Below the pieces are notes generated by a model. The model did no database searches. It saw only the letters and a program-made list of their open reading frames with translations, and was not told where the DNA came from. A stretch of DNA of 64,000 bases from Stigmatella erecta (GTDB taxonomy: Bacteria; Myxococcota; Myxococcia; Myxococcales; Myxococcaceae): NCBI RefSeq assembly GCF_900111745.1, contig NZ_FOIJ01000007.1, positions 62,001 to 126,000 on the forward strand, written 5' to 3'. Of the stretch, positions 10,440-36,383 are shown piece after piece (positions within the stretch are counted from its first letter, which is position 1; each line of letters starts with the position of its first letter). The translations under genes were made by a program, and so were the position numbers.

Positions 10440-10457
10440 CTTTCACATCGCTGTCAC
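10440..10457 (+). promoter_or_regulatory. Pho box upstream of the first phoB-like gene
   Basis: Two half-sites, CTTTCAC and CTGTCAC, are spaced at exactly 11 bp, matching the enterobacterial PhoB consensus architecture. They lie 70-87 bp before the response-regulator ATG. The rest of the 318-bp gap between the divergent yceD and this gene shows no other gene. Confidence 0.7.
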
Positions 10458-10526
10458 AATGGGATCTGCTAGTGCTCCCGCGCCAGGGGCCCTGTCCCCT
10501 CCTCTTTCCAGGATGCGGAGAACACC

Positions 10527-11207
10527 ATGGCGCGAATCCTGATCATCGAAGACGAGCAGGACCTCGCCGGACTCATCGAATACAACCTCCGGGCCGCAGG
10601 CTTCGACCCGGAGACGGCGAACACCGGCGCCGGAGGGCTCGCCAAGAGCCGCGCCCGGCTGCCGGACCTCGTGCTCCTGGACCTGATGCTCCCGGACATC
10701 TCGGGCCATGAGGTGCTCCGGATGCTGAAGAACGACCCCGGGCTGCGGGCCGTCCCCGTGGTCATCGTCAGCGCCAAGGGGCAGGAGGCCGACCGCATCC
10801 AGGGGCTGGAGATGGGGGCGGACGACTACGTGGTGAAGCCCTTCTCCGTCCGGGAGCTGATGCTCCGGGTCAAGGCGGTGCTGCGCCGGGCGGACACGGA
10901 GGAGGGGCCCGCCACCCAGCTCACCGCGGGGGACATCCAGCTGGACACCTCGCGGCACCAGGTGCGCGTCCAGGGCGAGGAGGTGGTCCTCACCGCCCTG
11001 GAGTTCCGCCTGCTGCACACCCTGCTGGAGCGCGGCGGCCGGGTGCAGACGCGCGAAGTCCTCCTCTCGGACGTCTGGGGCATCCAGGCGGAGATTCACA
11101 CCCGCACCGTGGACACGCACATCAAGCGCCTGCGCGAGAAGCTGGGCCCTGCGGGCGACATCATCGAGACGGTCCGGGGCGTGGGCTACAAGCTCAATCC
11201 CCCGTGA
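10527..11207 (+). CDS. PhoB/OmpR-family response regulator
   Basis: The 226-aa protein has a receiver domain (1-120) with acidic pair E9-D10 and phospho-acceptor D52 in LLDLMLPDISG, then an OmpR-type winged-helix domain (about 128-224) ending GVGYKLNPP. It is followed 10 bp later by a PhoR-like kinase and is preceded by a Pho box, so I infer autoregulation by phosphate starvation. It is one of two closely similar PhoB-like regulators in this locus, and sequence alone does not settle which is the true PhoB. Confidence 0.92.
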   Translation: MARILIIEDEQDLAGLIEYNLRAAGFDPETANTGAGGLAKSRARLPDLVLLDLMLPDISGHEVLRMLKNDPGLRAVPVVIVSAKGQEADRIQGLEMGADDYVVKPFSVRELMLRVKAVLRRADTEEGPATQLTAGDIQLDTSRHQVRVQGEEVVLTALEFRLLHTLLERGGRVQTREVLLSDVWGIQAEIHTRTVDTHIKRLREKLGPAGDIIETVRGVGYKLNPP

Positions 11208-11217
11208 GGAGCCCGCC

Positions 11218-12576
11218 ATGACCCTGCGCGCCGTGCTCCTCTCCCTCCTGCTCCCCGCGGCCGTGGTCATGCTGCTGCTCGTGGTTCTGGGCCAGCCGGG
11301 CACCGCCGTGGGCGCGGCCCTCGTCACCCTGGCCGGGTCCATCGCGGCCCATGTGGCCAACCGGGACCAGGTCCAGCGGCAGATTCAAGCCCTCGCGAGC
11401 AAGACGCTGGAGCGCGCCGAGGGAAGCCCCCACGGCCCCCTTCCGGACCCAGAACGGCTGGACGAGATGGCCAGCCTGGAGGGCGCGATCGACTCGCTCC
11501 ACTCCCGGCTCACCACCCAGAATGTCCAGCGGACCCAGGAGACGCGCACCCTCACCGCCGTGCTGGATGGCATGATCGAAGGCATCTGGATCACCGATGC
11601 CGAGGGCACCGTCATCCGGCACAACGACGCCCTGCGGGAGATGCTCCAACCGGGCAACGGGCCCATCGTGGGCCAGCGCCCCCTGGCCCTCATCCGCGAC
11701 GAGGCCCTCAATGACGCCGTGGCCCGGGCCTGCCGGGAGGGTGCCTCGTCCCGCCTGGAGCTGACGCTGGAGGGGCTCTTCCCCCTCACGCTCGCCATCC
11801 GGGTGACGCCCCTGGGCCGGGACTTGCCCGGCAGCGCCGCCGTCTTCAACGACGTCACCGAGCTGCGCCGGCTGGAAAATGTGCGCAAGGACTTCGTGGC
11901 CAACGTCTCCCACGAGCTGCGCACCCCCATCACCGCCATCCGGGGCTACGCGGAGACGCTTCAGACCGGGGCCCTGCAGGACCCCGCGGTGGCACCCAAG
12001 ATGGTGGAGATCATCCACCGCCAGTCCGAGCGCCTCTCCGAGCTCGTCGAGGATCTGCTGGAGCTGTCCCGGCTCGAGTCGCGCGAGATGAAGCTCAAGT
12101 TCGCCGACGTGTCCCTCGCCGTCGCCGCCTCCCGCGCCGCGGAGACCGTCAAGCCCAAGGCCGAGGGCAAGAACATCCACCTGGAGCTGCACCTGTCCCC
12201 GGCGCTGAAGGCCCGGGCCGACGAGCGGGCCGTCGAGCAGGTGCTCCTCAACCTGCTCGACAATGCCGTGAAGTACACCCCGGCGGGCGGGCGGGTGGAC
12301 GTGTCGGGAGGCCAGGAGAACGGGCGCTGCATCGTCCGTGTGAAGGACACGGGGGTGGGCATCGAGCCCAAGCACCTGTCGCGCATCTTCGAGCGCTTCT
12401 ACCGGGTGGACAAAGGTCGCAGCCGGGACATGGGCGGCACGGGCCTGGGCCTGTCCATCGTCAAGCACCTGCTGGGGGCCATGGACGGCGAGGTGAAGGT
12501 GGAAAGCCGCCCTAATGTAGGCAGTGTTTTCGTAATTTTTCTTCCCGCCACCCCCTCGGAGGCCACATCTGGGTAG
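11218..12576 (+). CDS. phoR: PhoR-like sensor histidine kinase
   Basis: The 452-aa kinase has two N-terminal membrane segments within about residues 1-45 and almost no periplasmic loop. Next come a PAS-like region (about 110-215), the HisKA box NVSHELRTP with H232, and an ATPase domain with NLLDNAVKYTP, DTGVGI and GGTGLGLSIVKHLL. The lack of a periplasmic sensor domain is typical of PhoR, which senses through PstSCAB and PhoU. It sits between the regulator (10-bp gap) and the phosphoesterase (12-bp gap). The symbol is given by context. Confidence 0.88.
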   Translation: MTLRAVLLSLLLPAAVVMLLLVVLGQPGTAVGAALVTLAGSIAAHVANRDQVQRQIQALASKTLERAEGSPHGPLPDPERLDEMASLEGAIDSLHSRLTTQNVQRTQETRTLTAVLDGMIEGIWITDAEGTVIRHNDALREMLQPGNGPIVGQRPLALIRDEALNDAVARACREGASSRLELTLEGLFPLTLAIRVTPLGRDLPGSAAVFNDVTELRRLENVRKDFVANVSHELRTPITAIRGYAETLQTGALQDPAVAPKMVEIIHRQSERLSELVEDLLELSRLESREMKLKFADVSLAVAASRAAETVKPKAEGKNIHLELHLSPALKARADERAVEQVLLNLLDNAVKYTPAGGRVDVSGGQENGRCIVRVKDTGVGIEPKHLSRIFERFYRVDKGRSRDMGGTGLGLSIVKHLLGAMDGEVKVESRPNVGSVFVIFLPATPSEATSG

Positions 12577-12588
12577 GATGGGGTAACC

Positions 12589-13590
12589 ATGCGGGTCGCG
12601 ATCCTCGCGGACATTCACGGCAATCTCCCTGCCTGCGAGGCCGTCCTCGAGGACATCGAGCGGATGGCGCCCGACTACATCGTGGCCGCGGGCGATCTCG
12701 CGCTGCGCGGGGCCCACCCGCGCGAGACGGTGGAGCTCTTGCTGGACCGCTGTGACTCCGTGCTGATGGGCAACACGGACTGCTACCTCGCGGGCAACTA
12801 CCTGGGCGGCGCCTACCGCGAGCGCGACCACTGGAAGACCGAGCTGCTGCGCTGGACGCGGGACCAGCTGGGCGAGGCCCACCTCAAGACGCTGGGCGCC
12901 CTGCCCTTCTCCATGCGCTACACGCCGCGCAAGGGGCAGGACCTCTTCGTCTGCCACGCGAACCCGAAGAACCTCGAGGAGTCGCTGGACCCGACCCTCG
13001 ATGAAATCTCCATCCGCCGCTTCTTCATGCACCTGGACGCGGCGGCCTGCGCCTTTGGCCACCTGCACTTCCCCTACCGCCGCCGGGTCGGCCGAATGCT
13101 CATCGCGGACGTGGCCAGCGCGGGCATTCCCCGGGATGGCGACCTGCGGCCCGCCTACGGCATCTTCACCTACACGCCCAAGGGCTGGCGCGTGCAGATC
13201 CGCCGGGTGCGCTACCCCGTCCGCAAGGCCACCCAGGCGCTCACCGCGCGCCGGGTTCCCGGCGGCCCCATCCTCATCCACAAGCTGGTGGAGGCCCGCT
13301 ACCGCCACCACCACTCCCTGCTCGAGGCGGCGCGCCGCCACTCGGGCCTGCCCCCCCCGGGGCCCGTGCTGCGGCCTCCCCCGGGGGCCCCGCCCCGGCG
13401 CCCGCCACCTCCGGGCGTGCCTCCCGCGGGGGACCTGGAGACAGAGCCGCCCGTGCCCCGCCAGGACGAGACGGAGGCCGCCGTGCTGCGCATGGAGGCG
13501 CTGGACTCCGTGGAGCTGCCCCCCGTGCAGGACATCGAGGCGGCGGAGGAGGCCTCGCTGTCCACTGGCACGACAGATCTGGACGGCTGA
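12589..13590 (+). CDS. calcineurin-like metallophosphoesterase with proline-rich tail
   Basis: The first ~230 residues are a YfcE-like metallophosphoesterase: DIHGN, AGDLALRG, GNTD (in place of GNHD/E), CHANP and FGHLHFPY supply the metal ligands. The remaining ~100 residues are Pro/Arg-rich and then acidic, and probably unstructured. It is the third gene of a phoB-like, phoR-like, phosphoesterase run, so phosphate scavenging or cyclic-nucleotide turnover is a reasonable inference. No signal peptide is seen, so it is cytoplasmic. The substrate is unknown. Confidence 0.82.
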   Translation: MRVAILADIHGNLPACEAVLEDIERMAPDYIVAAGDLALRGAHPRETVELLLDRCDSVLMGNTDCYLAGNYLGGAYRERDHWKTELLRWTRDQLGEAHLKTLGALPFSMRYTPRKGQDLFVCHANPKNLEESLDPTLDEISIRRFFMHLDAAACAFGHLHFPYRRRVGRMLIADVASAGIPRDGDLRPAYGIFTYTPKGWRVQIRRVRYPVRKATQALTARRVPGGPILIHKLVEARYRHHHSLLEAARRHSGLPPPGPVLRPPPGAPPRRPPPPGVPPAGDLETEPPVPRQDETEAAVLRMEALDSVELPPVQDIEAAEEASLSTGTTDLDG

Positions 13591-25369: not shown

Positions 25370-25512
25370 GTCCGGCCCCCTGGCTTCGCGAGAACGCTGG
25401 AGAGGCTGCCCCCGAGTTCCCTCGGGGTGCCCCGTCCGAGTGCTCCCGGGGCAGACCGGGGCTCATGGGCTGGGTTGAGATGCAATACCCAATGAAATCC
25501 AGCAGTTGAAAG

Positions 25513-25598
25513 TGCACGAGCCGGGGATCGAACCCGGACGGTCCTTGCGGACCAACGGATTTTAAGTCCGCTGCGTCTACCTGTTCCGCCACTCGTGC
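25513..25598 (-). tRNA. tRNA-Leu(UAA), hosting the integrated element
   Basis: The minus strand gives a class II cloverleaf: acceptor GCACGAG/CTCGTGC, anticodon loop CTTAAAA (anticodon UAA), a long variable arm (TGGTCC/GGACCG) and T arm CCGGG-TTCGATC-CCCGG; the discriminator is A. Its 5' half (25560-25598) is the left attachment repeat. Everything upstream of the gene is therefore element DNA rather than the original promoter. Confidence 0.94.
25560..25598. repeat. attL, 39-bp core within tRNA-Leu
   Basis: This is identical to 36345-36383. It covers the anticodon loop through the 5' acceptor strand of the tRNA. Flanking bases differ on both sides (A versus C on the left, G versus C on the right). 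Confidence 0.93.
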
Positions 25599-25635
25599 GT
25601 GTCTTTTCCAGCACTTACTGGCCCCATGTGGCCCC

Positions 25636-25658
25636 CCAAAGTAGGGATAGAGTAGGGA
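25636..25658. promoter_or_regulatory. left arm-type integrase sites
   Basis: GTAGGGA occurs at 25641 and 25652, 11 bp apart. The first lies within CCAAAGTAGG (25636-25645), whose reverse complement recurs near attR. Binding by Int or the excisionase is inferred. Confidence 0.5.
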
Positions 25659-25760
25659 CAACCTGCTCTCATGGGCCGCATGTTCACGGGCTCCCGCAAC
25701 GTACTCTGGCCCGGCGCCGACGCAGCGCCAAATCGCCCGTGTGCTCGCTGCGCGACGGCG

Positions 25761-26090
25761 CTACTTCTTCGCCCGCTCGGCCTTCAGCTGCGCAAGCGCG
25801 AGTTCGCCGAGGATGGTGCCCGGCGACTTGGCCGCCTTGCCTCCCACGCCCGAGGCGTAGACCCGCGCTAGAACCTCGCCCCAGTCGGCGCCCATCGCTT
25901 TCTGAGCGTCCCGCCCTACCCTGAAGCCCTCCTGGAGGGCATCCGTGATGCTGTGGCCGGCCGCCTTCGCCTCCTGAAGCGAAGCCTCCACGTCATCGGC
26001 AAGGCGGATGCCCGTCTGCCGCTTCTTGTGGCCTTTTTTGCGGCCATGGCCGGAACCGGCTGGGATCACTCGCTGCCTCGCGGCCTGCAT
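25761..26090 (-). CDS. hypothetical protein of the element
   Basis: This 109-aa basic protein has a Lys/Arg-rich N-terminus (HGRKKGHKKRQTG) and a helical remainder (RLADDVEASLQEAKAAGHSITDALQEGF). The start at 26090 is set by AAAGGAGG 10 bp upstream, although the frame is open to 26171. I do not recognise the family. A DNA-binding or ribbon-helix-helix-like role is possible but unproven. It is the leftmost gene of the element and is divergent from the lipoprotein gene. Confidence 0.65.
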   Translation of the reverse strand: MQAARQRVIPAGSGHGRKKGHKKRQTGIRLADDVEASLQEAKAAGHSITDALQEGFRVGRDAQKAMGADWGEVLARVYASGVGGKAAKSPGTILGELALAQLKAERAKK

Positions 26091-26242
26091 GGGTGCCTTA
26101 CCTCCTTTAGGGGCTGGGACTGTGCCGGTCAATGTCCGACGATGGTTATACAGACTACCTGCGCACCACACTAAATTTCAACGCTCGCCAACGTATAACC
26201 ACTGTGTTACGGCTGCGGTCCCAATCAAGGGGGAGGTGCCTA

Positions 26243-27205
26243 ATGCACGTACGGATGCTTGCGGTGGTGATGCTGGTGTGCTTGGCGGGGTGCGGTCCCC
26301 GGGAGGTGTTCGAGGCCCCGCCCCCTCCCGCCCAGGTTCAGGAGACGCGGCCCGAGGAAGAGGTGCTGAAGTTCTGGCCGGCGGTGCCGTCGCTCGGGGC
26401 GCTCACCGTCCAGGAACCATCCGCGGCGAACGACCTGTCCAATTGGTACTACCGGGACCGGTGGCACCTGAGCGAGTGGTCTCAACCGACTGCGGGGGCG
26501 CTGGGGCTGATCGACGGTCTGACCGCGGGCATCATGCCTACGATGACAGCGACGCGCGCGGTCTGGCAGACGGTCCCGGGGATGGGTACGCGGACACTCT
26601 GGCGCTTCACCGTGGACCTGGACGGCCCCGGCTCCTGGCGCTTCCGGCTGGAGGCGAAGGAGAAGTCCGCCGCTGATGCTGCCTTCCTCAAGCTGATTGA
26701 AGGGAAGCGGACCTTCCAGGGGGGCACGGACACAGGAGAGCTCAGCGTTGATGGCTCAGTGCTGAAGACCCTGCCCGAGCGGCCCAGCATGCTTTTGCGC
26801 ACGATGGCGCTTCACTACAGCATCAGCGAGGCCGAGCACACCGTATCCGGCAGCATGGGCGAGGGACTCTCAATCTGGACGGTGGATTCAATCCAGCGCG
26901 CCAAGAGCGGCGGGGACCTGAAGACCTTCATGGGGGGGTGGGACGGCGCCTGGATTTCGCTGAACGCCCGATGGACCGCGGCAGGCGCGGGGCGGGCAGA
27001 CATGCACACCGGCAAGCCTGATGGGCGCCACCGGCCAACACAGGCGATGTGCTTCGTCCCCGATGCCAAGGCCGTCCAGATCCAGCCAACCTGGGAGGAG
27101 ACGCGAAACGCCTGGACCGACGAACCGCCCTTCGTCTGGGGGGATCCTGCCACGTGCGTTCTCACTGAGGCCCTTCCGTTCATCCCCTCCCCCACCATCC
27201 CATAG
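26243..27205 (+). CDS. hypothetical lipoprotein carried by the element
   Basis: The 320-aa protein has a signal peptide with lipobox LAGC, then an acidic Pro-rich linker and an all-beta-looking body with many Trp residues. I do not recognise the family. A strong GGGGGAGG site fixes the ATG at 26243. It is on the strand opposite to the capsid genes, just inside the left end, a usual place for cargo (moron) genes. A surface-changing or superinfection role is only a possibility. Confidence 0.7.
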   Translation: MHVRMLAVVMLVCLAGCGPREVFEAPPPPAQVQETRPEEEVLKFWPAVPSLGALTVQEPSAANDLSNWYYRDRWHLSEWSQPTAGALGLIDGLTAGIMPTMTATRAVWQTVPGMGTRTLWRFTVDLDGPGSWRFRLEAKEKSAADAAFLKLIEGKRTFQGGTDTGELSVDGSVLKTLPERPSMLLRTMALHYSISEAEHTVSGSMGEGLSIWTVDSIQRAKSGGDLKTFMGGWDGAWISLNARWTAAGAGRADMHTGKPDGRHRPTQAMCFVPDAKAVQIQPTWEETRNAWTDEPPFVWGDPATCVLTEALPFIPSPTIP

Positions 27206-27217
27206 CCGGAGGACACC

Positions 27218-27433
27218 ATGCACTTCAATGCGAACAAAGGCGACCGCGTCTGTGCGGCCTCAATGATCACCGAAGAGAACTTCATGGGCAGGGGGCGCCA
27301 TGTTCACGCGCGCCAGGGAGACTTGGGCGTTGTCCAAAAGGTAGACGGTGAATGGCTCACGGTTACGTGGGTGCTCACCGGCACCACCTACGACAGCCAC
27401 ATCAGCGATCTGCAAGCGTCGCAAGCGAATTAG
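27218..27433 (+). CDS. small hypothetical protein, SH3/KOW-like
   Basis: This 71-aa protein follows the lipoprotein by 12 bp with a GGAGGAC ribosome-binding site, so the two are probably cotranscribed. The segment QGDLGVVQKVDGEWLTVTW resembles a small beta-barrel strand pattern. No function can be given. A strong terminator follows. Confidence 0.6.
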   Translation: MHFNANKGDRVCAASMITEENFMGRGRHVHARQGDLGVVQKVDGEWLTVTWVLTGTTYDSHISDLQASQAN

Positions 27434-27452
27434 AGCTGCGAGCTCTCTGCAT

Positions 27453-27486
27453 GAGGGGCCTGATACCAAGCGGTGTCAGGCCCCTC
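27453..27486. terminator. bidirectional hairpin terminator between convergent genes
   Basis: 15-bp arms (27453-27467 and 27472-27486, one wobble) with a 4-base loop sit between the plus-strand cargo pair and the minus-strand tail-fibre gene. The plus side continues GTCTTTG. Confidence 0.75.
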
Positions 27487-27497
27487 GTCTTTGATAC

Positions 27498-28232
27498 CTA
27501 CTGGCGCCCGAACACCCGGAAGGTCACGGTGAAGCCCGTGAACGCCGGGCTCACCAGGTCGTTGACGGAGTTGAACGCGGAGATCTTGAATCCGGCGGTC
27601 GTCTTCGAGTGCGAGCCCGCAGACACGTTCTTGGTTGTCGCCGCGCTGATCTCCTGCTCCACGCCAGCGTCATACAGCGCGTTGGCCATGGGCGCGGCGA
27701 AGTCCACCTGGACGTGCGAGCCGGACACGGACACGCTGGCCACGTTAGCCCCATCGTTCAGCGTGGCGATGCCTCCCGACACGGTGATGGTGCCCCATGC
27801 TTTGCACGTCAGCTCCTTGACCAGCTTGTTGGAGAGCGGGACCGACGGCGCGGTGGTCGGCGCTTGGAGGAACACCAAGCCATCCTTCGTGCCGAGGGTA
27901 CCGTCTGCGGTGATGGCGCCGGAGCTGGCGATCTCCCCGTCTGCGGTGATGGGACCATCGGAGTTGATGAGTCCGACACCTCCGGGGAACGTCTGCTTCC
28001 CCTCCCACGCGTTCGGGACGTCCTTCCTCCCATACGCCTGGTCCAGCGCGTCGCCGAGCTGCGTGTCATCCCCCTTCACGAGCGTGATTCCCTCCCGCTC
28101 GATCACCGTGCAGATGCTCTCCTGAATCGCGTTCATGTGGTCCGCGTCGGCCACCGTGGCCTCCACGTCGTTGATTTCGTCCCCGTTCGTGTACTTCCCG
28201 GCGATGCTGCCTTCGCTGTCGATGCGGTGCAT
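27498..28232 (-). CDS. phage tail-fibre-like protein
   Basis: The 244-aa product has the phage receptor-binding/tail-fibre N-terminal pattern: MHRIDSEGSIAGKYTNGDEI, then VEATVADADHMNAIQESICTVIEREGITL, then a TQLGDALDQAYG-like segment. A Gly/Thr-rich repetitive middle and beta-rich end follow. The ATG at 28232 follows CAGGAG; the frame upstream is open to 28337 but looks non-coding. It lies after the capsid gene across a 266-bp gap that holds GC hairpins but no gene. Confidence 0.75.
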   Translation of the reverse strand: MHRIDSEGSIAGKYTNGDEINDVEATVADADHMNAIQESICTVIEREGITLVKGDDTQLGDALDQAYGRKDVPNAWEGKQTFPGGVGLINSDGPITADGEIASSGAITADGTLGTKDGLVFLQAPTTAPSVPLSNKLVKELTCKAWGTITVSGGIATLNDGANVASVSVSGSHVQVDFAAPMANALYDAGVEQEISAATTKNVSAGSHSKTTAGFKISAFNSVNDLVSPAFTGFTVTFRVFGRQ

Positions 28233-28459
28233 GTGCTTCTCCTGCAGGTTGACCCGGCGCGCCGGGATTGAAAGGTGCGGAGCGCCCAGCCGCCCGGGAG
28301 ACCACGCGGAGAAGGACGCGTTGGGCGACGGCGGCATGGGCTTGTTTTGTGCGGGCGCTCCGCGCGCCCCGTGTTGGGTGTCGCCCCGACAGGGGTTCAG
28401 CCCGCGAGGACTGCTTCACGGACTTGGAGCACCCGGGCTGCGATGCTCACGAAGCTTCT

Positions 28460-28478
28460 GGGGGCGGCTTGCGCCCCC
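28460..28478 (-). terminator. GC hairpin after the capsid gene
   Basis: A 7-bp perfect stem (GGGGGCG/CGCCCCC) with a 5-base loop lies about 20 bp past the capsid stop. No U-tract is present, so termination is uncertain. Confidence 0.35.
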
Positions 28479-28498
28479 GGTGATGGCGGCCACGGTGC

Positions 28499-30388
28499 TC
28501 ACTGGGTGATGGGCACCTTCACCAAAGACCGGAAGTCGAGCGCCTTGACGCCCACCACATGGCGGCACTTCCAGGAGGTGGCGTCCCGGATGAACGCGTC
28601 CTCACGCTCAATGTACGGGCCGCCCTCGTTCTCTGCCAGACGCGCAACCACCAAGCCGTCCACGGGCTTGCCCGGCGCGCTGGCGATGTAGAACGCGGTG
28701 CCGCCGAGCCGGTTCTCGATGATGGGCACCAGGCTGGACACCCAGGTGGGCTGGGCCGAGTCCAACCCGGCGGACTGGGGGCGGCTGCCGAGGGCGAGGA
28801 CGCGCTCCGCGGCGCCCTCCAACTCCGGGCCGCAGATCAGGAAGCGCGGGGCCGCAGAGAGCTGGCCACCGCCCAGCGCGGTCTGACGGCGCAGCAGGAG
28901 CCGGGCCGAGTCGAGCGAGGTGGCATCCAGTTGCCCGGCCACGGGCGCGATGTTCTTGTGATCCGCGTGGAAGAGGGCCTTCCCGTCCGCCATCGTAGGG
29001 CCCGCTCCGCCGTTCTCCGCGAAGAGACCATAGAGCAGGTCGGCCTCCTTTCGGCGCGCGACCTGGCCCAGCCCAGGCTGCACGCGGAGCCAAGCCCCCA
29101 GGTCGTCGTTGAGCAGGAGCTCCCAGCTCAGATGGATCGCCACGCCGTACTTCGAGACCCGGTAAGTCGCGGCGGCCTCGGACATGGGGCCGGACTTGTA
29201 CTCTCCCAGCTCGGAAACAGGCATCAGCTCGGGGACTGAGGAGAGCACCGGGCGCAACACGGGCCTGAAGTCGGGCACCGTGTCGGAGGAGGTCCACTCA
29301 CGGAAGGTGGCGGGCTCCTCCTCGTAACCAGCGCCGATGCTCTTGCGGATGGAGTTCTCCAGCAGAAGCGGGAAGTCACTGGTTGACATGGACCGCTGGA
29401 TCAGCCGCATCCCCACCAGCTCGGGGGCGCTCTTTCCGCCCGAGCGGGACAGCGCGGTGCGCGCCATCTCCAGCACGGACGTGCGGTGCAGGTCCCCCGC
29501 GGCGGCGTGCGGCTTCTTCACGGTAATGCCAGCGCGCATCACGAGAGCATCGCTGGCGGCCTCGATGAAGTCACCGTGGGCGCCGCGCTGACCGCGGATC
29601 TCGTAGTCGTGGGCCGGGGCGTATTCGTTGACCGGCGTCGCCTCGGAGCGCTGAACCAGCGCCTCCAGCACCTGGGCGCGGGCGGCCTCCAGCGCCGCTC
29701 CCGAGTTGATCAACTGCTCCGCCAGCGTCTCGGGCAGTTGGGCGCGGCGCACCAGCGTCGTGATATCGCCGCACCGCTGGCGCTCCAGGGCGCGGATCTC
29801 CTCGGGGGTCTCGTGCTGGGTCTTCTCGTTCGGCAGGGTCATGCGCGTTCCTTCATGGGTGGGGTTACTTCGGATGATGCTCTGTGGGTCCGCAGGGATT
29901 GCGACGGGGGAGATCTCCAGGGGCTCCCAATCGACGACACGAAAAACCGGAGGCTGCCCCTCGCCCTTCTCCGTCTGGATGGCCTTGTGAACCGAGTAGC
30001 CCACGCTCACGCTGCGCAGGATGCCCTGCCGGACCTTGTTCCACACCCGCTCCGACTCGTCGTCGTCGCGGGCGAAGCGCAGCACCGCGCGCCCCTCGCC
30101 GTTGGAGATCCACGCGCGCTCCACCACACCGACGTGGGCCGTCGGGCTGTAGACGTTGTGGCTGTTCAGCACGGGCGCGCGGCCCGAGGAGAGGCGCCCC
30201 ATGCGGACGTGCGCGGGGTCAAGGCTCAACTCCTCGAAGAACGGCCCATCCCAGCTGAAGCGCTTCACACGGTGGCCCGTGGCGAAGACGACTTCGACGG
30301 TGCGCGTGGCTTCATCCAGCGAAGACGGCACGAGTTCCGCGACAGCTGCGCGGGTGCCGACGCCGGGGGTGACTTTGGTTGCGTCCAT
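28499..30388 (-). CDS. fused prohead protease and major capsid protein
   Basis: The N-terminal ~170 residues match the HK97-type U35 prohead protease, with catalytic His in VLNSHN and Ser in LRSVSVGYSV. After an acidic linker with a likely delta-domain, the C-terminal ~300 residues match the Mu gpT-like/HK97-fold major head protein (for example TYRVSKYGVAIHLSWELLLNDDL and KALFHADHKN). The fusion, 629 aa, would make its own scaffold-protease and shell subunit. It is the only head gene I can identify in the element, with no portal or terminase next to it. Confidence 0.82.
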   Translation of the reverse strand: MDATKVTPGVGTRAAVAELVPSSLDEATRTVEVVFATGHRVKRFSWDGPFFEELSLDPAHVRMGRLSSGRAPVLNSHNVYSPTAHVGVVERAWISNGEGRAVLRFARDDDESERVWNKVRQGILRSVSVGYSVHKAIQTEKGEGQPPVFRVVDWEPLEISPVAIPADPQSIIRSNPTHEGTRMTLPNEKTQHETPEEIRALERQRCGDITTLVRRAQLPETLAEQLINSGAALEAARAQVLEALVQRSEATPVNEYAPAHDYEIRGQRGAHGDFIEAASDALVMRAGITVKKPHAAAGDLHRTSVLEMARTALSRSGGKSAPELVGMRLIQRSMSTSDFPLLLENSIRKSIGAGYEEEPATFREWTSSDTVPDFRPVLRPVLSSVPELMPVSELGEYKSGPMSEAAATYRVSKYGVAIHLSWELLLNDDLGAWLRVQPGLGQVARRKEADLLYGLFAENGGAGPTMADGKALFHADHKNIAPVAGQLDATSLDSARLLLRRQTALGGGQLSAAPRFLICGPELEGAAERVLALGSRPQSAGLDSAQPTWVSSLVPIIENRLGGTAFYIASAPGKPVDGLVVARLAENEGGPYIEREDAFIRDATSWKCRHVVGVKALDFRSLVKVPITQ

Positions 30389-30438
30389 GGCTCATAGAAG
30401 AACCATGGGCGCCTTTGAAGTCTCCAGTGGGCGGGACT

Positions 30439-30822
30439 TCAAACCTCGATGGGCGGTTCGTCCTCGTCCAGCTCCGGATCCAGCAGGGTGTGGAATTGCC
30501 TCCAGCTCGTCGGCATTTTCACGCCCGTGGCAACGGCATCCAGCACGGCAGCACGCACGCCGGTTGGATCCGGCGGCAGCGAGATGCGCCCCGGGCGGAG
30601 GGCGGAGGTAGTCTCCTGCGCAAGGCGTTGGGCCTTCGCATAGAGACTTCCGCTCATGAACCCCGCAGCGCGGCGCAGGTGTTGGTCCCGGACGGCGCGG
30701 CGGCCCGCGGCGGGGGCCAGTCGCACCAGCGCCGCTTCCAGCTCGGAGGCCAGGTCAGCGGTGATAACGCCCGTCTCCCGAGCAACGCGGAGGCGGACAA
30801 CCAAGTCAACGATCTTGGCCAT
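30439..30822 (-). CDS. hypothetical protein upstream of the capsid gene
   Basis: The 127-aa helical protein is rich in Arg and Ala, with a C-terminal segment PTSWRQFHTLLDPELDEDEPP. It lies 11 bp after the 166-aa gene and 50 bp before the capsid fusion, in one apparent operon. I do not recognise it. A packaging or head-size role is conceivable by position only. Confidence 0.6.
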   Translation of the reverse strand: MAKIVDLVVRLRVARETGVITADLASELEAALVRLAPAAGRRAVRDQHLRRAAGFMSGSLYAKAQRLAQETTSALRPGRISLPPDPTGVRAAVLDAVATGVKMPTSWRQFHTLLDPELDEDEPPIEV

Positions 30823-30833
30823 GGGGCGCTGAC

Positions 30834-31334
30834 CTAGTTGACCGCCTCGCGTCCCCCAGGGACGTGCTGGGCGGCAAGAACCGCGTCACGGATGGCGCGC
30901 TCGAGAAGCTTGACCACCTCTTCGTCCGTCCGCTCGTCGAAGGAAAGTTCCCGGGCTTTCTCGCACGCGAAGTCGCGGATGCGAGCGGCCTTCAACCCAT
31001 CAAGCGGGTGGAGACCGGAGCGGGTGATGACAGCCAGGTACTGAGCAGCGGCTGCCGTGAGGACGAACACGCGGCGGCATCGCGCGGCGCCCAGGAAGCG
31101 ATGCCCCACCACGATTCCCCGGGCCACGTCCAGGGACACGAGTCGGGTCAGCGCGGCCAAGGCTTCCGGCTCCATGTCGGGGGTGGCCGCAACCACGTCT
31201 GCCAGCTCCGCGGACACCTCCTGGATGAACCTCTCTTCGTGGGCCTGTCGCAGTTCTGGCCAGCCGCGGGCCTTGTGGACGCCACGCACGTAGACCAGCG
31301 ATTCTGCAGCAAGCTTCTCCATGGTGTTCTCCAT
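30834..31334 (-). CDS. hypothetical protein, first gene of the capsid operon
   Basis: The 166-aa protein is mostly helical and acidic overall, starting MENTMEKLAAESLVYVRG. The ATG at 31334 has GGGAG 7 bp upstream. It is the first gene after the non-coding region with repeated GTTAACCA sites, so it may be under their control. No family recognised. Confidence 0.6.
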   Translation of the reverse strand: MENTMEKLAAESLVYVRGVHKARGWPELRQAHEERFIQEVSAELADVVAATPDMEPEALAALTRLVSLDVARGIVVGHRFLGAARCRRVFVLTAAAAQYLAVITRSGLHPLDGLKAARIRDFACEKARELSFDERTDEEVVKLLERAIRDAVLAAQHVPGGREAVN

Positions 31335-31407
31335 GTCCTGTCTCCCTCACGTCAGAAGTGACGTGTTTCATTCACACTCTCATGATCGGCCGGGGCGTCA
31401 ATGATGG

Positions 31408-31502
31408 CCTGTTAACCAGAGTGACCACACGTGTCAGCGCGCAGGCTCTTGAAACTGCTACGGATTCACCCCGAGCGACCACCTGTTAACCAAAGTGACA
31501 AC
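31408..31502. repeat. two operator-like direct repeats
   Basis: CCTGTTAACCA(G/A)AGTGAC occurs at 31408 and again at 31482, 74 bp apart, about 75-170 bp upstream of the capsid-operon start. The copies differ at one position within the core. They could bind the element's repressor or an initiator. Confidence 0.6.
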
Positions 31503-31621
31503 CCCTCCCAGGATTTTTCCCCAGGGTAATCCTGCGATTCTTCGCACCCTCAGGTGGCTGGGTGTGGGGAAGAACCTACAGGCATGGGGGTGGGGGCACA
31601 TGCGCGACAAGGCTAGCCGCG

Positions 31622-31754
31622 CTTCACACCCTTCACGCTGGACACCCCACTTTCCAAATACCCCTGGGGCTAGGTGATGCTCATTTTCATGGCGCCTGCC
31701 TGTATCTCTATCCCCCTATCTAAATCCCACCCAGAAGGTGTGAAGGGTGTGAAG
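31622..31754. other. candidate replication origin: 15-bp inverted repeat with GTGTGAAG iterons
   Basis: CTTCACACCCTTCAC at 31622-31636 has its exact reverse complement at 31740-31754, where GGTGTGAAG is tandem. The ~100 bp between is the most AT-rich stretch of the area. It lies just after the primase/VapE gene, the place of satellite origins in related systems. The 31335-31811 gap holds no gene. Confidence 0.5.
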
Positions 31755-31811
31755 GTGGGGAGGAATCTAAGAGCAATAAGGGGTTAGGAGCTTCCCACCC
31801 CCGGGACACCT

Positions 31812-34115
31812 TTACACCGCAGGCCGCTCCCACACCCGCTGCTTACGCCCATCAGCCCACACGTCCCGCTTGTGCCAACCGAGACAAGCAAGGATTGCTG
31901 CGGCGCGCATCTCCGCGTGTTTGTCCTGCCGGTGCCTCTCAAGACCCAGGGCGCCCGACAGAACGTCAGGGACACGCACGGTGGCCGCTTGGGGGACCGT
32001 CTCGGCAAGGAACTGAGCAATGTGGGTCTCCCAGGGATCACCCGGGCGCCGCTTCTCCTGCTCCTGCCTGGCTTCTGTCTCGGGCACCTCGTGCCAGCTC
32101 TCCCCGGCTTCGACGCGCGCGAGGGCTTCGGCAAAGAGCTGGAGCCGGTTGGCCCGAATGTATTCCACGTCCGCCCGGACGCACGCGACAGGCCAAAAGC
32201 GCCGGGCGCCAGTCTCGTCTCGAGCCCAGTCGCTTCGGTTCGTGGTCCCGGCGAACACCCCGCGGCGCGGGTAGTCCTTGCTCGTGCGTGCGTAGGGCGC
32301 GCGGTACCTGTCCGTGGCGCAGCTCAGCACCCGCTTGACCGCAGCCACGTCCGCCCGGCTGAAGCTGTCCATCTCGCCCACCTCCACGAGGAGCTTCCCT
32401 TGCAGCAGCATGAAGAAATCCTTCGTACTGGGACTCTCCGACGCCTCCGCGAAGAAGTGCGCCGTGACGATCTCTTGCAGGCTCGTGCTCTTGCGGATGC
32501 CCTGGGCTCCCTCCAAGACAACCATGGTGTCCAGCTTGCAACCGGGGCGGGTAGCGCGGGCTACGAGCCCCTTCCAGAAGTTGGCGCTCACAGCCCGCGT
32601 GTATGCGCTGTCCGGCGTCCCGTAGACGCGCGACAGGAAGCCATCCAGGCGGGGCGTGCAGTCCCAGACGAGCCCGACGAAGGCTTCCTTCACTACGTCT
32701 CTAGACCGAGCCTGCGCGTAGTGCTCCACCGCCTGCCTCACGGTCTGCTGGGTCATCTTCGCCAGCCCCAGCGAGGCTTGCATGTGCCGCATCAACTCCA
32801 GGTCGTCCGCGTCGGACCATTCCCGCCCATCGAACATGATGCGCTGGCTGAACTCCTCGAAGTAGATTGGCTTCTTCTCGTGCTCCAGCACTCGCACGGC
32901 GTTGTCCATGTTGGAGTGCGCAGCTCCCCCCGGACCCAGCATCAATCCGTAAGCCGTCAAGCTCGCCGCCTCCGTGGATACGACACGAGGCACCGCAGGC
33001 TTCACGGGGCGCGGCAGGCCCAGGGCCTTGACGCCCAACCCCGTGGCGCCCGCGAGCTCCTTCTGGATGATGGCGTGCTTCGTGGGGTCGCCGGAGATGG
33101 CGGCCAGGGGGCGGATGGACTCCACAAGTTGCTGCATGCCCTCGTCGGTGTGGGGCCCTGCGGCGCGCCAGTCCTCGATGCGCTTCCGCGCAGCCGCAAC
33201 GGCGTCCATGGACCTTCGGCACCCGTACTCGGCCTTGCCGTACTTGGCGCCCCGGCGGAGCCGCTCGCGCAGTCCCTCCGGGCCAGAGATTTCCGTGTCC
33301 CAGGGGGTGGGGTTGCTCTCGTTCCACTCGCACAGGAGAGGCCAGGCTTCCTCCTCGCTCAGGGCGAAGTCGTGCGTGAGGATGGCCGCCGCCTGGATGG
33401 TGTGCTGCCCCCCACCCTCCCCGTTCTCTCGCGCGGGCGCCGGACCGTGCTCTTCCAGCGCCTCCCGCGCGGACTGCAGGACAGCAGGCGAGGCCGGCGG
33501 GAAGTAGCCCCGTGCAGTCGCGCCCTGTGCAGCAGAGGTGCTCCGCGCGGACGGACGCCGAAGGAGGCTGAGCAGCCACGCGGGCGCCTCGGCAACGTCT
33601 GTGTCCCAGGGCGAGTTGACCCAGGCGTACTGCCCCTTGGCAGACCGCGACGGGGCCACCACAATCTGGCCTCCGTTGCCGCGCGTGTCGAGGCCGGGGC
33701 CCAGGCGCCCCGCAGTGTTCGTGAGCTCCACACCCTCGGGCATCAGGAAGAGGTAGTGCGCGCCCCCAGAGCCTGTGCGCTGCTGCACCGTGCGTGGCAG
33801 CTTCCCGTGTTCGGCCTCCAGGCGCGCGAGCGACTCGAAGCCCCCCTTGTCCGGGTCCACGTCCAGGGCGAAGAACCCGGAGACTTCTCCGGTGGCGATA
33901 CCGATGTTCCCGGTAGGCCACGCGGCCTGCCACTCGGCAACGCGTTGCAAGTCCTCGGTGGCCTGGGCGACCCAGTCGTTCAGCCGGGGGTGCTTGGCCG
34001 CGCTCTTGCCACAGGCGGGGCCCTTCGCGCAGCTGCAGGCGCCGTCGGAGCGCAGGGAGTGGATGGGCACCACGGCCCAGCCCAGGCGCTCGGCGTACAG
34101 GGAAGCCGACTCCAT
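31812..34115 (-). CDS. primase-polymerase / VapE-type helicase fusion
   Basis: This 767-aa replication protein has an N-terminal bifunctional primase-polymerase (AEP) domain (about 5-190) with the acidic LDVDPDKGG motif and later GSGGAHYLF and GNGGQIVVAPS blocks. A C-terminal VirE/VapE-like P-loop ATPase (about 440-690) follows, with EGAQGIRKST as Walker A and VEVGEMDSF as the Walker B region. This combination is typical of autonomously replicating phage satellites and islands. Its start overlaps the excisionase-like stop (TGATG), so the two are translationally coupled. Confidence 0.85.
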   Translation of the reverse strand: MESASLYAERLGWAVVPIHSLRSDGACSCAKGPACGKSAAKHPRLNDWVAQATEDLQRVAEWQAAWPTGNIGIATGEVSGFFALDVDPDKGGFESLARLEAEHGKLPRTVQQRTGSGGAHYLFLMPEGVELTNTAGRLGPGLDTRGNGGQIVVAPSRSAKGQYAWVNSPWDTDVAEAPAWLLSLLRRPSARSTSAAQGATARGYFPPASPAVLQSAREALEEHGPAPARENGEGGGQHTIQAAAILTHDFALSEEEAWPLLCEWNESNPTPWDTEISGPEGLRERLRRGAKYGKAEYGCRRSMDAVAAARKRIEDWRAAGPHTDEGMQQLVESIRPLAAISGDPTKHAIIQKELAGATGLGVKALGLPRPVKPAVPRVVSTEAASLTAYGLMLGPGGAAHSNMDNAVRVLEHEKKPIYFEEFSQRIMFDGREWSDADDLELMRHMQASLGLAKMTQQTVRQAVEHYAQARSRDVVKEAFVGLVWDCTPRLDGFLSRVYGTPDSAYTRAVSANFWKGLVARATRPGCKLDTMVVLEGAQGIRKSTSLQEIVTAHFFAEASESPSTKDFFMLLQGKLLVEVGEMDSFSRADVAAVKRVLSCATDRYRAPYARTSKDYPRRGVFAGTTNRSDWARDETGARRFWPVACVRADVEYIRANRLQLFAEALARVEAGESWHEVPETEARQEQEKRRPGDPWETHIAQFLAETVPQAATVRVPDVLSGALGLERHRQDKHAEMRAAAILACLGWHKRDVWADGRKQRVWERPAV

Positions 34116-34363
34116 CAGGACACACCGAGATCTAGATCCGCGATGGAGCCACCGGCACGCTGTCTTTGCGGCTTCACCTTCGGCGCACGAACCTCACCAT
34201 TCCGAGCAAGCTCTTCGAGTTGCGCGCGGGGGATATACTGCCGCCCAAGCAACGTCACCGGGCGGAGAAGGCCGCGACGGATGAACTCGTGAAGCGTTTT
34301 GTTCCGCCCGACGCCAAGCGCTCGCGCCGCCTTCCTGAAACTACAGAGGAGTGGCTCGCTCAC
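34115..34363 (-). CDS. excisionase-like HTH protein
   Basis: The 82-aa protein has a MerR/Xis-type helix-turn-helix: SFRKAARALGVGRNKTLHEFIRRGLLRPV, then the winged strand GRQYIPRAQLEELAR. Such proteins act as excisionases or as small regulators in prophages and satellites. It overlaps the HTH gene before it by 4 bp and the primase gene after it by 1 bp. Confidence 0.75.
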   Translation of the reverse strand: MSEPLLCSFRKAARALGVGRNKTLHEFIRRGLLRPVTLLGRQYIPRAQLEELARNGEVRAPKVKPQRQRAGGSIADLDLGVS

Positions 34364-34602
34364 GGCTGCCTCCGAATAGAGGCGGCTTGCGACAAGCCGA
34401 GACGAACGAGTGCAATAGTGCCGGGATATACGCCGAGCCCACTGAGCGCGCGTGCAAAAGCGCCCCGGCTCAGGCCGATGTGCGACCGCACCTTGGCCTC
34501 CCCATGCTCCTTCACCAGATCGGCAAGGGGGCGTCGAAGTTCTTCAGGGAGGGGCGAGGAGCCGCGCGATGCTCTCGAGGTGATTGATGTCCCATGGACC
34601 AT
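34360..34602 (-). CDS. small HTH regulator
   Basis: The 80-aa protein has a predicted HTH in the segment VRSHIGLSRGAFARALSGLGV followed by GTIALVRLGL, a pattern seen in small phage-type regulators. It begins at ATG 34602 and overlaps the excisionase-like gene (ATGA). It is a candidate for the factor that binds the repeated sites at 31408 and 31482; this link is inference. Confidence 0.6.
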   Translation of the reverse strand: MVHGTSITSRASRGSSPLPEELRRPLADLVKEHGEAKVRSHIGLSRGAFARALSGLGVYPGTIALVRLGLSQAASIRRQP

Positions 34603-34670
34603 GCGTATTGGGTCTCATGGTTCGGCTCGACGTGCTCACCCGCCAAATCGCAGCTTTTGGCGGGGCCCGC

Positions 34671-35225
34671 TCAACTTTCATCCTCTCGGAGAATCTCGTC
34701 GACCTTAACCTGGTGGGCGTTCATCGCCGGCAGACGCTCCTCGTACCAGCGCCGCGCCTCACGCTCCGAGCAGCTTCGGCCCCCTTGAGTTGCCCACTTG
34801 CTCACGATCTCGAACACAGTAGGAGTGCCGTTGCTGTTCAGCTTCGTCGGACCTTCTTTGGCCCGCACAGCCCGAAACACAGCCCAGGCAACTTGGTCCT
34901 TGAATGCCTCACCTTGCAGACGGGCATGCATGTCGTCTGCGTCGTCGGGCTGTCTTCCGCGTCCGGCGGCCACTCGAAGCAACTCACCAGCGCGCGCGGG
35001 CTCGTCACAGATAGCCTCAAGCCTCGTGGCGAGCCACGTCCTGAGCGTCTCCGGCAGAGGTTGTTTGCCCCGAAGACACCGCGAGGCCAAGTAAGCCAAG
35101 CGGCGCCCAGCGTCAGTGTTCCCTTCATCCGCAAGCCGGATCATCTTCTCGATATTCTTTTCACCGGCGACAGACCAAGGGGGCGGCTCGGCGCTAGGAA
35201 TCCTGCTCTTGCGCTCGGTGCTCAC
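34671..35225 (-). CDS. hypothetical protein coupled to the integrase
   Basis: The 184-aa protein starts at a GTG (35225) that overlaps the integrase stop by 4 bp (GTGA), which decides the start although the frame is open much further upstream. It is helical and charged, with no recognised domain. Tight coupling to int suggests an accessory role in integration or regulation, but that is only positional evidence. Confidence 0.6.
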   Translation of the reverse strand: MSTERKSRIPSAEPPPWSVAGEKNIEKMIRLADEGNTDAGRRLAYLASRCLRGKQPLPETLRTWLATRLEAICDEPARAGELLRVAAGRGRQPDDADDMHARLQGEAFKDQVAWAVFRAVRAKEGPTKLNSNGTPTVFEIVSKWATQGGRSCSEREARRWYEERLPAMNAHQVKVDEILREDES

Positions 35226-36253
35226 GCTGCACTCTCCGCCTTCTGCTTCGGCTCCATGTCCGCCAGCGTCGGGACCTTCGCCGGTACGGCATGCGTGGCG
35301 TAAAAGCGTTTGGTGGTAGCCGAGCTCTTGTGTCCCAGGAACGCCGCCACACTCGCCGGGTCCGCCCCCGCATTGATTGCCCACGTGGCGACGGAATGCC
35401 TCAAGAATCCGGGGTTGAACGTCGCACCGACCCCCTTGAGTGCATCCCGGAACCGGAAGTAGTCCACCCCGCCGCGGTCCCGAAGCCTCTTCGCTGCTGC
35501 GGCGACAGCCGGACTGACCTGCGTCCGGAGCGGAGCTCCACCCTTCGTCTGCGGGCACACCAAGACGGGCGCCCCGCTCAGGGGGTGCGCCTCGATGTCG
35601 CCCGTCTTGGCGAATCGCTCCAGCTCTGTGACGTGCCAGCCGGTACCACCAAGCACCTCGAGCGCGTCGCGAGGCCATCCCTCAAGCGCGGTCAACGCGC
35701 GCTCGTACTCCTCGCGACCAATCGCCTTGATCTTCTCCAGCTGCTTCGGCTGGGCCTGGGGCACCTTCACCTGGCCGAAGGTCGGATCTTCCGCCGTGGT
35801 GATGAGATGCCGCTCGGTGCGCAGCCACGCATAGAACGTCTTGAGCGTGGCGATCAGCTGCTTACGGCCCGTCGCTCCATCGAGCTCCGTCAGGATGCGC
35901 GAGGTCTTCAGCGTGCGGAGGTCCACGCCTGACAGGCGACCCTCCCACCAGGCGAGCGCCCGCTGCTGGTCCTTCACCCACTTTACCGTGTTGCCCTTCT
36001 CGTCCCGGCTCCAGAAAAGGAACGCTCTACCGAGCTCTTGGTCGAGCAGAAGAGCGCCTCGTGGGGCCTCTCCCTCTGGCTTATACCCCTCGGGGCTGAC
36101 CTGGAACCTCACCAGGTGCTCGTTGGCGGCCCGGCTTGAGGTCGCCCGGGTGCTCACCTCGTAGAGCTTGCCGCAGACCCGCTTGTAGATGACGAAAACC
36201 CCGGCGGGCGTGATGTACCCGCCGTCCCAGCGGCGCGACCTATCTGACGGCAC
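35222..36253 (-). CDS. int: tyrosine-family integrase of the element
   Basis: The 343-aa protein has an N-terminal arm-binding region, a core-binding SAM-like domain around residues 90-170, and a catalytic domain with LGHKSSATTKRFY (His and Tyr nucleophile) and FLRHSVAT (box II Arg). The box I Arg appears to be His (GTGWHVTEL), and the box II His is not in its usual place (FNPGFLRH). It starts at GTG 36253, less than 100 bp from attR, with possible Int arm sites upstream. It integrates into tRNA-Leu(UAA). Confidence 0.85.
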   Translation of the reverse strand: MPSDRSRRWDGGYITPAGVFVIYKRVCGKLYEVSTRATSSRAANEHLVRFQVSPEGYKPEGEAPRGALLLDQELGRAFLFWSRDEKGNTVKWVKDQQRALAWWEGRLSGVDLRTLKTSRILTELDGATGRKQLIATLKTFYAWLRTERHLITTAEDPTFGQVKVPQAQPKQLEKIKAIGREEYERALTALEGWPRDALEVLGGTGWHVTELERFAKTGDIEAHPLSGAPVLVCPQTKGGAPLRTQVSPAVAAAAKRLRDRGGVDYFRFRDALKGVGATFNPGFLRHSVATWAINAGADPASVAAFLGHKSSATTKRFYATHAVPAKVPTLADMEPKQKAESAA

Positions 36254-36262
36254 CAGTTGGCT

Positions 36263-36318
36263 CCTACTGGTCCGCGATGACCAGTAGGGAAACAGTAGGG
36301 GAAGAGGGCCTACTTTGG
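36263..36318. promoter_or_regulatory. right arm-type sites and int promoter palindrome
   Basis: A perfect 10-bp inverted repeat (36263-36272 and 36279-36288, 6-bp spacer) sits just upstream of int. GTAGGGA-type repeats lie at 36284 and 36295, 11 bp apart, and CCTACTTTGG at 36309 is the inverted copy of the left-end CCAAAGTAGG. Confidence 0.5.
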
Positions 36319-36344
36319 CAACGTTCCCTCTGGAGAGCAGCCGC

Positions 36345-36383
36345 TTTTAAGTCCGCTGCGTCTACCTGTTCCGCCACTCGTGC
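36345..36383. repeat. attR, 39-bp partial tRNA-Leu copy
   Basis: This is a perfect copy of 25560-25598. Only the 5' half of the tRNA is present, so it is not a functional tRNA gene. The DNA to its right (36384-36480) holds the original tRNA upstream region, shared with the divergent ffh leader. Confidence 0.93.

Follow-up and report, generated by a model that had tools for sequence, protein, structure and literature searches.

Genome organization of the element

The 64,000-nucleotide stretch of the Stigmatella erecta genome analyzed here (contig NZ_FOIJ01000007.1, positions 62,001 to 126,000; hereafter the window, whose coordinates are used throughout) contains a compact element of 10,824 bp, terminal repeats included, which carries capsid and replication genes between two attachment (att) repeats and which we interpret as a probable phage satellite. 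Twelve proteins are predicted. On the minus strand, starting at the end away from the tRNA, the gene order is integrase, p11, p10, a helix-turn-helix (HTH) gene, a PrimPol-VapE gene, a 477 bp gap, p7, p6, a capsid fusion and a fiber-like gene; the latter is followed by p3 and p2, both encoded on the plus strand, and by p1, again on the minus strand. The first five genes, from integrase to PrimPol-VapE, overlap or are at most 70 bp apart.

One of these genes (28499-30388, minus strand) encodes a 629-residue fusion of a prohead protease to a major capsid protein. Residues 14-625 match phrog_4523, 'major head and protease protein', with an expectation value (E) of 1.6e-162, and there are Pfam matches to PF25209 (2.4e-46) and PF04586 (1.5e-6). 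His77, Ser128 and Glu158, which by analogy with HK97-type proteases we take to be the S78 catalytic triad, are invariant in a five-sequence alignment with phages. A structural model built from nine satellite sequences is of middling confidence (predicted local distance difference test, pLDDT, 69); in it residues 7-164 resemble the T4 gp21 protease (Z 13.0, root-mean-square deviation 2.7 over 141 residues), and residues from about 330 to 629 resemble HK97-fold shells (Z up to 12.9, and 11.8 for the shell of EcCI2, a capsid-forming phage-inducible chromosomal island). The full-length match, the presumed triad and the modeled HK97-like domain together place the fusion in the phrog_4523 family.

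Directly upstream of the fusion gene is p6 (30439-30822, minus strand), recognized by a p6 profile and predicted to be a helical protein of 127 residues. Its model is confident (pLDDT 87) and finds no clear structural match (best Foldseek viral E 1.9; one PDB row with Z 2.1), which does not in itself imply a new fold. We considered whether p6 could be a connector of the lambda gpW type, since several p6 proteins are among the top matches of a gpW profile (best E 0.068), and whether it is related to part of the capsid fusion, and rejected both, at profile-profile probabilities of 1% and 0.2% respectively. Downstream of the capsid is the fiber-like gene (27498-28337, minus strand), whose N-terminus matches phrog_2617 (1.8e-13); an alignment of six members shows a conserved N-terminal part from Met36 and a variable C-terminus.

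On the other side of the element are the genes for integration and replication: a 343-residue tyrosine integrase (35222-36253, minus strand; PF00589 1.1e-8, phrog_1 2.4e-12), an excisionase- or regulator-like HTH_17 protein (34115-34363, minus strand; PF12728 1.3e-5, just below the curated cut-off, and phrog_66 6.5e-7), and a PrimPol-VapE primase/helicase of 767 residues (31812-34115, minus strand; PF09250 3.5e-47, PF05272 7.9e-63). The 477 bp gap 3′ of the primase gene (31335-31811, no strand assigned) contains inverted 15-mers at 31622-31636 and 31740-31754, 103 nt apart, and none of 40 shuffled sequences did as well. As replication origins of phage-inducible chromosomal islands (PICIs) lie just 3′ of the replication gene (PMC6092414), we regard the gap, from its repeats and position, as a putative replication origin. 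In ten such regions scanned, the inverted repeats exceeded all 40 shuffles in the window and in two related loci described below (L174 and L179), and a short hairpin was found in a third (L175); the other six did not rise above shuffles, and repeats of this kind are therefore not a general family feature.

The integrase, Xis-like HTH protein, primase/VapE protein, protease-capsid fusion and fiber-like protein had all been proposed in a first-pass annotation made from the sequence of the window, and each is matched by Pfam or PHROG families. The same annotation saw no packaging or tail machinery, and here too we agree: none of the 12 proteins has a Pfam or PHROG match of large-terminase, portal or tape-measure kind, nor does any open reading frame (ORF) of at least 40 amino acids in the window match profiles for these three at E≤1e-3. 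The large terminase, portal and tail genes that a complete prophage would carry between its att sites are thus not found. Inactivating mutations, which the annotation named as grounds for abandoning its interpretation, are not apparent either, as no frame among those listed is interrupted by a stop codon and the capsid triad is kept.

Integration into a tRNA-Leu gene

The target of integration is an intact tRNA-Leu(UAA) gene called by ARAGORN at 25512-25598 on the minus strand. The 39 bp repeat at 25560-25598 lies within this gene and corresponds to its 5′ half, and the identical copy at 36345-36383 is a displaced tRNA-Leu 5′ fragment (neither repeat is assigned a strand); the plus strand of the window has no further copy. 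The right att copy is about 100 bp before a gene that we read by eye as ffh, of the signal recognition particle. All six other genomes of the same genus that were searched (G001-G006) have an empty site in which an intact tRNA-Leu adjoins the same flank. In G003, whose right flank is 99% identical to that of the window, a composite of the left and right flanks gives a 1002 bp alignment, at 94%, that spans the junction. The perfect att repeats noted in the first pass therefore enclose a precise insertion that is absent from the closest relatives searched.

A repeat that corresponds to the 5′ half of a tRNA marks a rarer kind of island, the Islander database containing 159 5′-fragment islands among 3919 (PMC4383910). 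In five of the related elements (L013, L174, L175, L177 and L178) it is the 3′ half of the tRNA that serves this purpose. Because the gene at 25512-25598 is the sole full copy of tRNA-Leu(UAA) found in the assembly, the region upstream of this tRNA is now element DNA. We note that its transcription may depend on an element-borne promoter, its own upstream DNA having been replaced; a scan of 25480-26200 for sigma-70-type promoters found none. We also considered the use of a rare tRNA as a developmental switch, but as the 12 frames of the element contain a single TTA codon, in p2, nothing follows from this.

The insertion bears on whether the locus is a mobile satellite at all, or is instead a domesticated shell such as an encapsulin-like compartment or a gene-transfer agent, for which it can be said that encapsulins and phage capsids match the C-terminal part of the capsid model about equally well. 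An integrase, a primase, an Xis-like gene, a fiber and att repeats of its own, the empty sites in six genomes of the genus, and the fusion of a prohead protease to the shell protein are all at odds with this account, which we consider scarcely credible.

Related loci in the Myxococcota

The first-pass annotation had suggested searching myxobacterial genomes for the same compact gene set, and when this was done with the capsid fusion, loci of similar plan were recovered. Capsid profile matches occur in 14 of 195 Myxococcota genomes; ten of these contain 11 loci in which p6 is followed by the capsid gene, three contain prophages, and one (G005) has only a broken remnant. The 11 loci are those of the window, L013 (G036), L014 (G027), L174 and L180 (both G103), L175 (G084), L176 (G091), L177 (G089), L178 (G160), L179 (G155) and L181 (G105). 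As they were chosen for having p6 next to the capsid, the presence of p6 in all 11 is true by definition; the match is weak in L178 (5e-5). A search with p6 returned 11 matches in ten genomes, missing the weak p6 of G160 and adding one in G129.

Around each capsid match, all ORFs of at least 40 amino acids were searched with profiles built from phages having this capsid. Training took two rounds and drew on phages and loci of this analysis, so that the E-values of members lean high; the gene caller used was home-made. None of the 11 loci has a portal or large-terminase profile match. The three prophages do have portals, which were recognized by our own profile in L173 and L182 (genomes G145 and G074) and by PHROG in L183 (G067), a locus that we had considered as portal-less before its PHROG portal and large-terminase matches led us to count it as a prophage.

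Eight of the 11 loci are bounded by direct repeats of 21-48 bp and measure 9,246-12,166 bp including the repeats; L014, L176 and L181, for which no att pair was found or which run into a contig end, were left out of this set. In six of the eight the repeats fall within tRNA genes that were called (for Leu, Pro, Glu, Met, Met and Pro), and seven different repeat sequences are represented. Across the 712 ORFs of the eight elements there is no large-terminase match at E≤1, the best portal match has an E-value of 0.061, no tape-measure match is better than 0.59, and the best connector match is 0.068, gpW being the connector type searched. Capsid and p6 are present in all eight, with open frames in each.

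The remaining genes are more varied. An integrase is present in ten of the 11 loci, recognized by Pfam in the window, L013, L014, L175, L177, L178, L180 and L181, and by BLAST similarity alone to the window integrase in L174 and L179 (30% and 26%); none was found in L176. The window integrase is 44-48% identical to those of L175 and L177. Replication genes have been exchanged: PrimPol-VapE is found in the window and L174, PrimPol in L014, L179 and L181, D5_N in L013, PriCT-2 in L175, PriCT-1 in L178 and AAA_25 in L180, whereas L177 has only a weak match to DnaA_N and L176 matches no family of this kind. The fiber-like protein, recognized by its conserved N-terminal part, is present in six of the 11. 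A PHROG tally of 67 accessory proteins lists 25 of 87 families, and is used here for presences only.

Small terminase genes show a similarly patchy pattern. Full-length phrog_57 matches (E 2.9e-20 to 3.3e-22) occur in three of the 11 loci, L014, L178 and L181, and there is similarity limited to the N-terminus in L013 (E 0.004), L176 and L177; the L175 candidate has no PHROG match and is linked solely by BLASTP to those of L176 and L177. We regard the genes of L013, L175, L176 and L177 as possible small terminases, the profile behind them having been started in part from genes picked for their location and then trained again on what it matched. No small terminase was found in the window, L174, L179 or L180. 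In the window, p7 (30834-31334, minus strand, 166 residues) occupies the position at which relatives have a small terminase-like gene, a p7-like gene, or both; there is no support for p7 being a diverged small terminase (E 0.99), and comparison did not establish homology between it and the p7-like genes of other elements.

Judged from the gene content of these loci, p6 and the capsid form the module that varies least, and replication genes are swapped between elements. Intact satellite capsids of full length share only 34-49% identity with that of the window, and their persistence at such distances suggests long-lasting selection. Both observations sit poorly with the proposal that the capsid is a dispensable captured late gene and that satellite DNA is carried entirely in heads of the helper, often in concatemeric form. 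There are precedents for such capture, in that a major capsid gene is reported for 21 of 29 reference gram-negative PICIs (PMC10111431), and the capsid gene of EcCICFT073, which carries capsid and decoration genes, can be deleted with no loss of transfer (PMC6092414); for the elements described here we think it improbable.

The protease part is similarly well maintained, His77, Ser128 and Glu158 being kept in all nine full-length satellite fusions that have it. L181 differs in that the capsid frame directly behind p6 (9429-10682) has no protease part.

A capsid tree of 108 rows, from which the partial capsid of L014, the G005 remnant and other frames under about 400 amino acids were left out, contains one phage-free clade (Shimodaira-Hasegawa-like approximate likelihood ratio test, SH-aLRT, 100) whose six capsids, drawn from three families of the order, are those of the window, L174, L013, L175, L176 and L177. 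A separate clade unites L179 with L180, and L178 and L181 fall among phages. The satellite label changes four times on this tree, where at least three changes are forced and shuffled labels give a mean of 9.7. This pattern suggests that the capsids were acquired or exchanged more than once, with p6 staying with them.

Two incomplete loci were also noted. The capsid piece in G005 is broken and 86-93% identical, and its 20 kb surroundings contain no other element gene at E≤1e-3 (integrases being considered only to 1e-20). The G129 match, at 10047-10406 of L195, is a p6 with no capsid profile match in 12 kb, and is probably part of a decayed element.

Phages and other bacterial loci with this capsid

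The capsid fusion is not restricted to satellites, and its phage homologues show what usually accompanies it. The phages Stenotrophomonas S1, Bordetella PBb002 and Rhodobacter RcKemmy encode homologous capsid-protease fusions (33-39% identical to that of the window) in the order small terminase, large terminase, portal and capsid, together with tail genes, which the element does not have; the small terminase of PBb002 is an unannotated gene similar to that of RcKemmy. Of 590 viral contigs with this capsid the best 80 were examined. A portal is present in all 67 that have at least 1.5 kb upstream of the capsid, so the search does recognize portals where they exist; the other 13 have less than this, and five of them show no portal. 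Five of six named genome contigs have a portal match, and the sixth (L009) has a large terminase and no portal match. Among Alphaproteobacteria, 21 of 385 genomes have a capsid match, and one of the loci, L010 (G195:C39), has a portal; in the 24 alphaproteobacterial loci examined there are 17 with a portal match and three on contigs shorter than 4 kb. The other four of the 24 (L213, L217, L218 and L219) show no portal match in 20 kb. The p6 profile has no match in the best 80 viral contigs or in the 24 alphaproteobacterial loci.

These comparisons speak to whether the element is a decayed prophage from which portal, terminase and tail genes were lost by deletion, a finding that the first-pass annotation said would count against its own interpretation. 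S1 has primase, both terminase subunits, portal and capsid encoded in a single array, from which a deletion could give a similar map, and the capsid copy in G005 is broken. Decay would, however, have to have produced the same omission in eight att-bounded elements with seven different repeat sequences, all retaining open capsid and p6 frames, and would not account for a common p6 that the profile does not find in the viral or alphaproteobacterial loci. Because ten relatives share a similar plan with no portal or large terminase, the element is probably not a deletion remnant, and we regard simple decay as highly improbable.

Comparison with known satellites

The P4-like satellites carry sid, psu and delta genes, and Pfam and PHROG scans of the window proteins, which included no search dedicated to these genes, gave no match to them. 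The closer comparison is with the PICIs, which are described as having an integrase, replication and regulator organization, no phage structural or lytic genes, a size of about 12-15 kb, a unique att site that prophages never use, and excision, packaging and interference linked to a helper (PMC6092414). The element has an integrase, a replication module and a candidate master regulator, the last being an HTH_17/phrog_66 match. It measures 10,824 bp, and its relatives 9,246-12,166 bp, and it has structural genes, the capsid-protease and the fiber, with no clear lysis gene. We therefore use the term PICI-like, noting that many accepted PICIs also depart from the strict exclusion of structural genes.

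The gram-negative PICIs are the nearest known kind. Like EcCICFT073 and PmCI172, the element has an integrase, a regulator and a primase-replication gene with an origin (here putative) at its 3′ side, followed by encapsidation genes, and the family shares with them small size, the occasional presence of terS, and a capsid gene with no full head-and-packaging set. It is unlike them in that the capsid is fused to a prohead protease and preceded by p6, in the fiber found in six of 11 loci, and in its occurrence in Myxococcota. In the capsid-forming PICIs (cf-PICIs), capsid and protease genes are accompanied by genes for a portal, connectors, the two terminase subunits and an HNH nuclease (PMC10690885). 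The element resembles these in having its own major capsid protein and maturation protease, and presumably in using helper tails; it is not a cf-PICI, because portal, gpW-type connector and large terminase were looked for and not found, with a small terminase in some relatives.

The first-pass annotation had proposed a distinct satellite type in myxobacteria, reasoning that the satellites known to it carry more packaging genes. What stands is the description of an element with capsid and replication genes and no recognizable portal, large terminase or tail; the claim of a distinct type is right only in part, as capsid-bearing PICIs with no packaging set are known in Gammaproteobacteria, EcCICFT073 among them. 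The fused protease, p6, the fiber in six of 11 loci and the host range in Myxococcota are apparently undescribed as far as searched, and we found no description of PICI-like satellites in Myxococcota in the open-access full-text literature (subscription papers being outside this scope).

A further comparison raises the question of what the capsid protein does. SaPIbov5, a Staphylococcus aureus pathogenicity island (SaPI), encodes a capsid-protein homologue, Ccm, that is reported to be unable to form capsids alone and to need the helper capsid protein (PMC5052747); Ccm has the HK97 fold and occupies the pentamers of small procapsids (PMC8569155). The element also carries an HK97-fold capsid homologue, and control of head size by its own capsid protein is possible, although here protease and capsid form one protein, encoded after p6. 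The fusion protein could thus act like Ccm, co-assembling with a related helper capsid protein, for example in the pentamers, so as to shrink the helper head and block helper growth. The uniform element sizes are as expected from a size limit, and the protease-less L181 fits this role better. A redirector of this type has no evident need of a complete protease, yet the triad is kept in every full-length fusion with a protease part, and the six satellite capsids of the phage-free clade do not track phage capsids; mixed shells would still be compatible with both observations. On balance we find this role unlikely.

A proposed helper-dependent satellite with its own capsid protein

The interpretation that we favor, with a probability of about 0.65, is that the element is a tRNA-integrated, helper-dependent satellite of PICI-like plan that makes its own shell, alone or together with helper capsid protein, and is given the large terminase, portal and tail by a helper. 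An infecting helper phage would induce excision, and the element would replicate from its own origin in the gap after the primase. The fusion protein and p6 would then build a shell of about 10-12 kb capacity, or co-build it with helper capsid protein, and this would mature through the element's own protease, to be filled by the portal and large terminase of the helper. Some relatives may add their own small terminase, and the window element would rely on that of the helper, or on p7. The tail would come from the helper, and the element's fiber may dock to it. In the first-pass annotation, too, the shell was proposed to be the element's own and the portal, terminase and tail to be borrowed, a division that would follow from the gene content described above.

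The retention of the protease is the main reason for favoring an own shell, with L181 as an exception, and what is least certain is whether the shell is a product of the fusion protein or is a helper shell that the fusion protein enters. As for the helper itself, the host genome contains no phrog_2 large terminase and no Phage_portal_2, these being the families tried, which match in 11 and 3 of 14 control genomes respectively; a helper would therefore probably come from outside.

Several points weigh against this interpretation. The satellite lifestyle is a prediction from genes, no helper of the families tried was found in the host genome, and the window element has no recognizable small terminase. 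A capsid gene does not prove a shell, since that of EcCICFT073 is dispensable and Ccm needs its helper. The protease-less capsid of L181 is a further difficulty, as is L176, in which a tape-measure-like gene (11184-12794; phrog_8125, 8.8e-28) follows the capsid near the contig end, such that this element may be longer, may be of another kind, or may carry its own tape measure. Lastly, a portal or large terminase unlike all of the profiles used would be missed.

A more ambitious formulation, which we advance tentatively and at rather less than even odds, is that these elements are a separate class of Myxococcota satellites that bring the shell (capsid, protease and p6), sometimes a small terminase, and their own fiber, that a helper portal starts the foreign shell, and that certain small plasmids are the plasmid form of the same thing. 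If so, there would be one more division of the virion among satellites, in which shell and fiber are brought and portal and motor are borrowed, whereas P4 and the SaPIs remodel the shell of the helper and cf-PICIs bring head and motor. The ability of a portal to start the shell of another element would become directly testable, and with a fiber of its own a satellite would determine which hosts it reaches even though the tail is the helper's. PICI-like satellites would also be added in the Myxococcota, and a reading would be offered for small plasmids with capsid genes.

Small plasmids and islands beyond the Myxococcota

Three loci outside the phylum are of interest in this regard. A 7,842 bp plasmid of S. 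elongatus (L168), presumably pANS, encodes CyRepA1, a full-length phrog_57 small terminase (2.9e-17) and a capsid fusion with the triad, and has no portal or large-terminase match; from its genes it is a possible plasmid satellite. RHOAph, a 10,690 bp Rhodovastum plasmid (L167), combines a capsid fusion with ParA, a DUF3987 replication protein and toxin-antitoxin genes, and has no portal or terminase match. Both are like the element in being small replicons with a replication gene and a protease-capsid fusion and no portal or large-terminase match, and unlike it in having no annotated integrase. An island in Sphingomonas paeninsulae (L169) has an annotated integrase and AlpA together with a capsid fusion, an ORF resembling a small terminase and a short stretch resembling a large terminase, and no portal match. 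Because none of the three has a p6 match, and their capsids are only 26-30% identical to that of the window by BLAST, we regard them as leads for the same strategy and not as family members.

Other genes of the element and its relatives

Two genes lie between the integrase and HTH genes on the minus strand. The first, p11 (34671-35225, 184 residues), is called as an ORF with a GTG start that overlaps the integrase stop, and has no Pfam or PHROG family match and no relative in the other elements. The second, p10 (34360-34602, 80 residues), also has no family match, and similar sequences are found in L174 and L179.

Of the three accessory ORFs near the tRNA, p1 (25761-26171, minus strand, 136 residues) and p3 (27218-27433, plus strand, 71 residues) match no family in Pfam, PHROG or PADLOC. 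The 357-residue p2 (26132-27205, plus strand) is lipoprotein-like, with a lipobox seen by eye, and matches no Pfam or PADLOC family; a marginal PHROG spanin match (E 0.042) is the only hint of a lysis gene. Defense cargo was considered for the window element and set aside, PADLOC matching none of the three, and a relationship of p2 to an accessory gene common to L174, L179 and L180 was likewise rejected (BLASTP E 0.43). L177 carries as cargo a kinase-like gene (11112-12173) whose product resembles PD-T4-6 defense proteins (8.7e-12).

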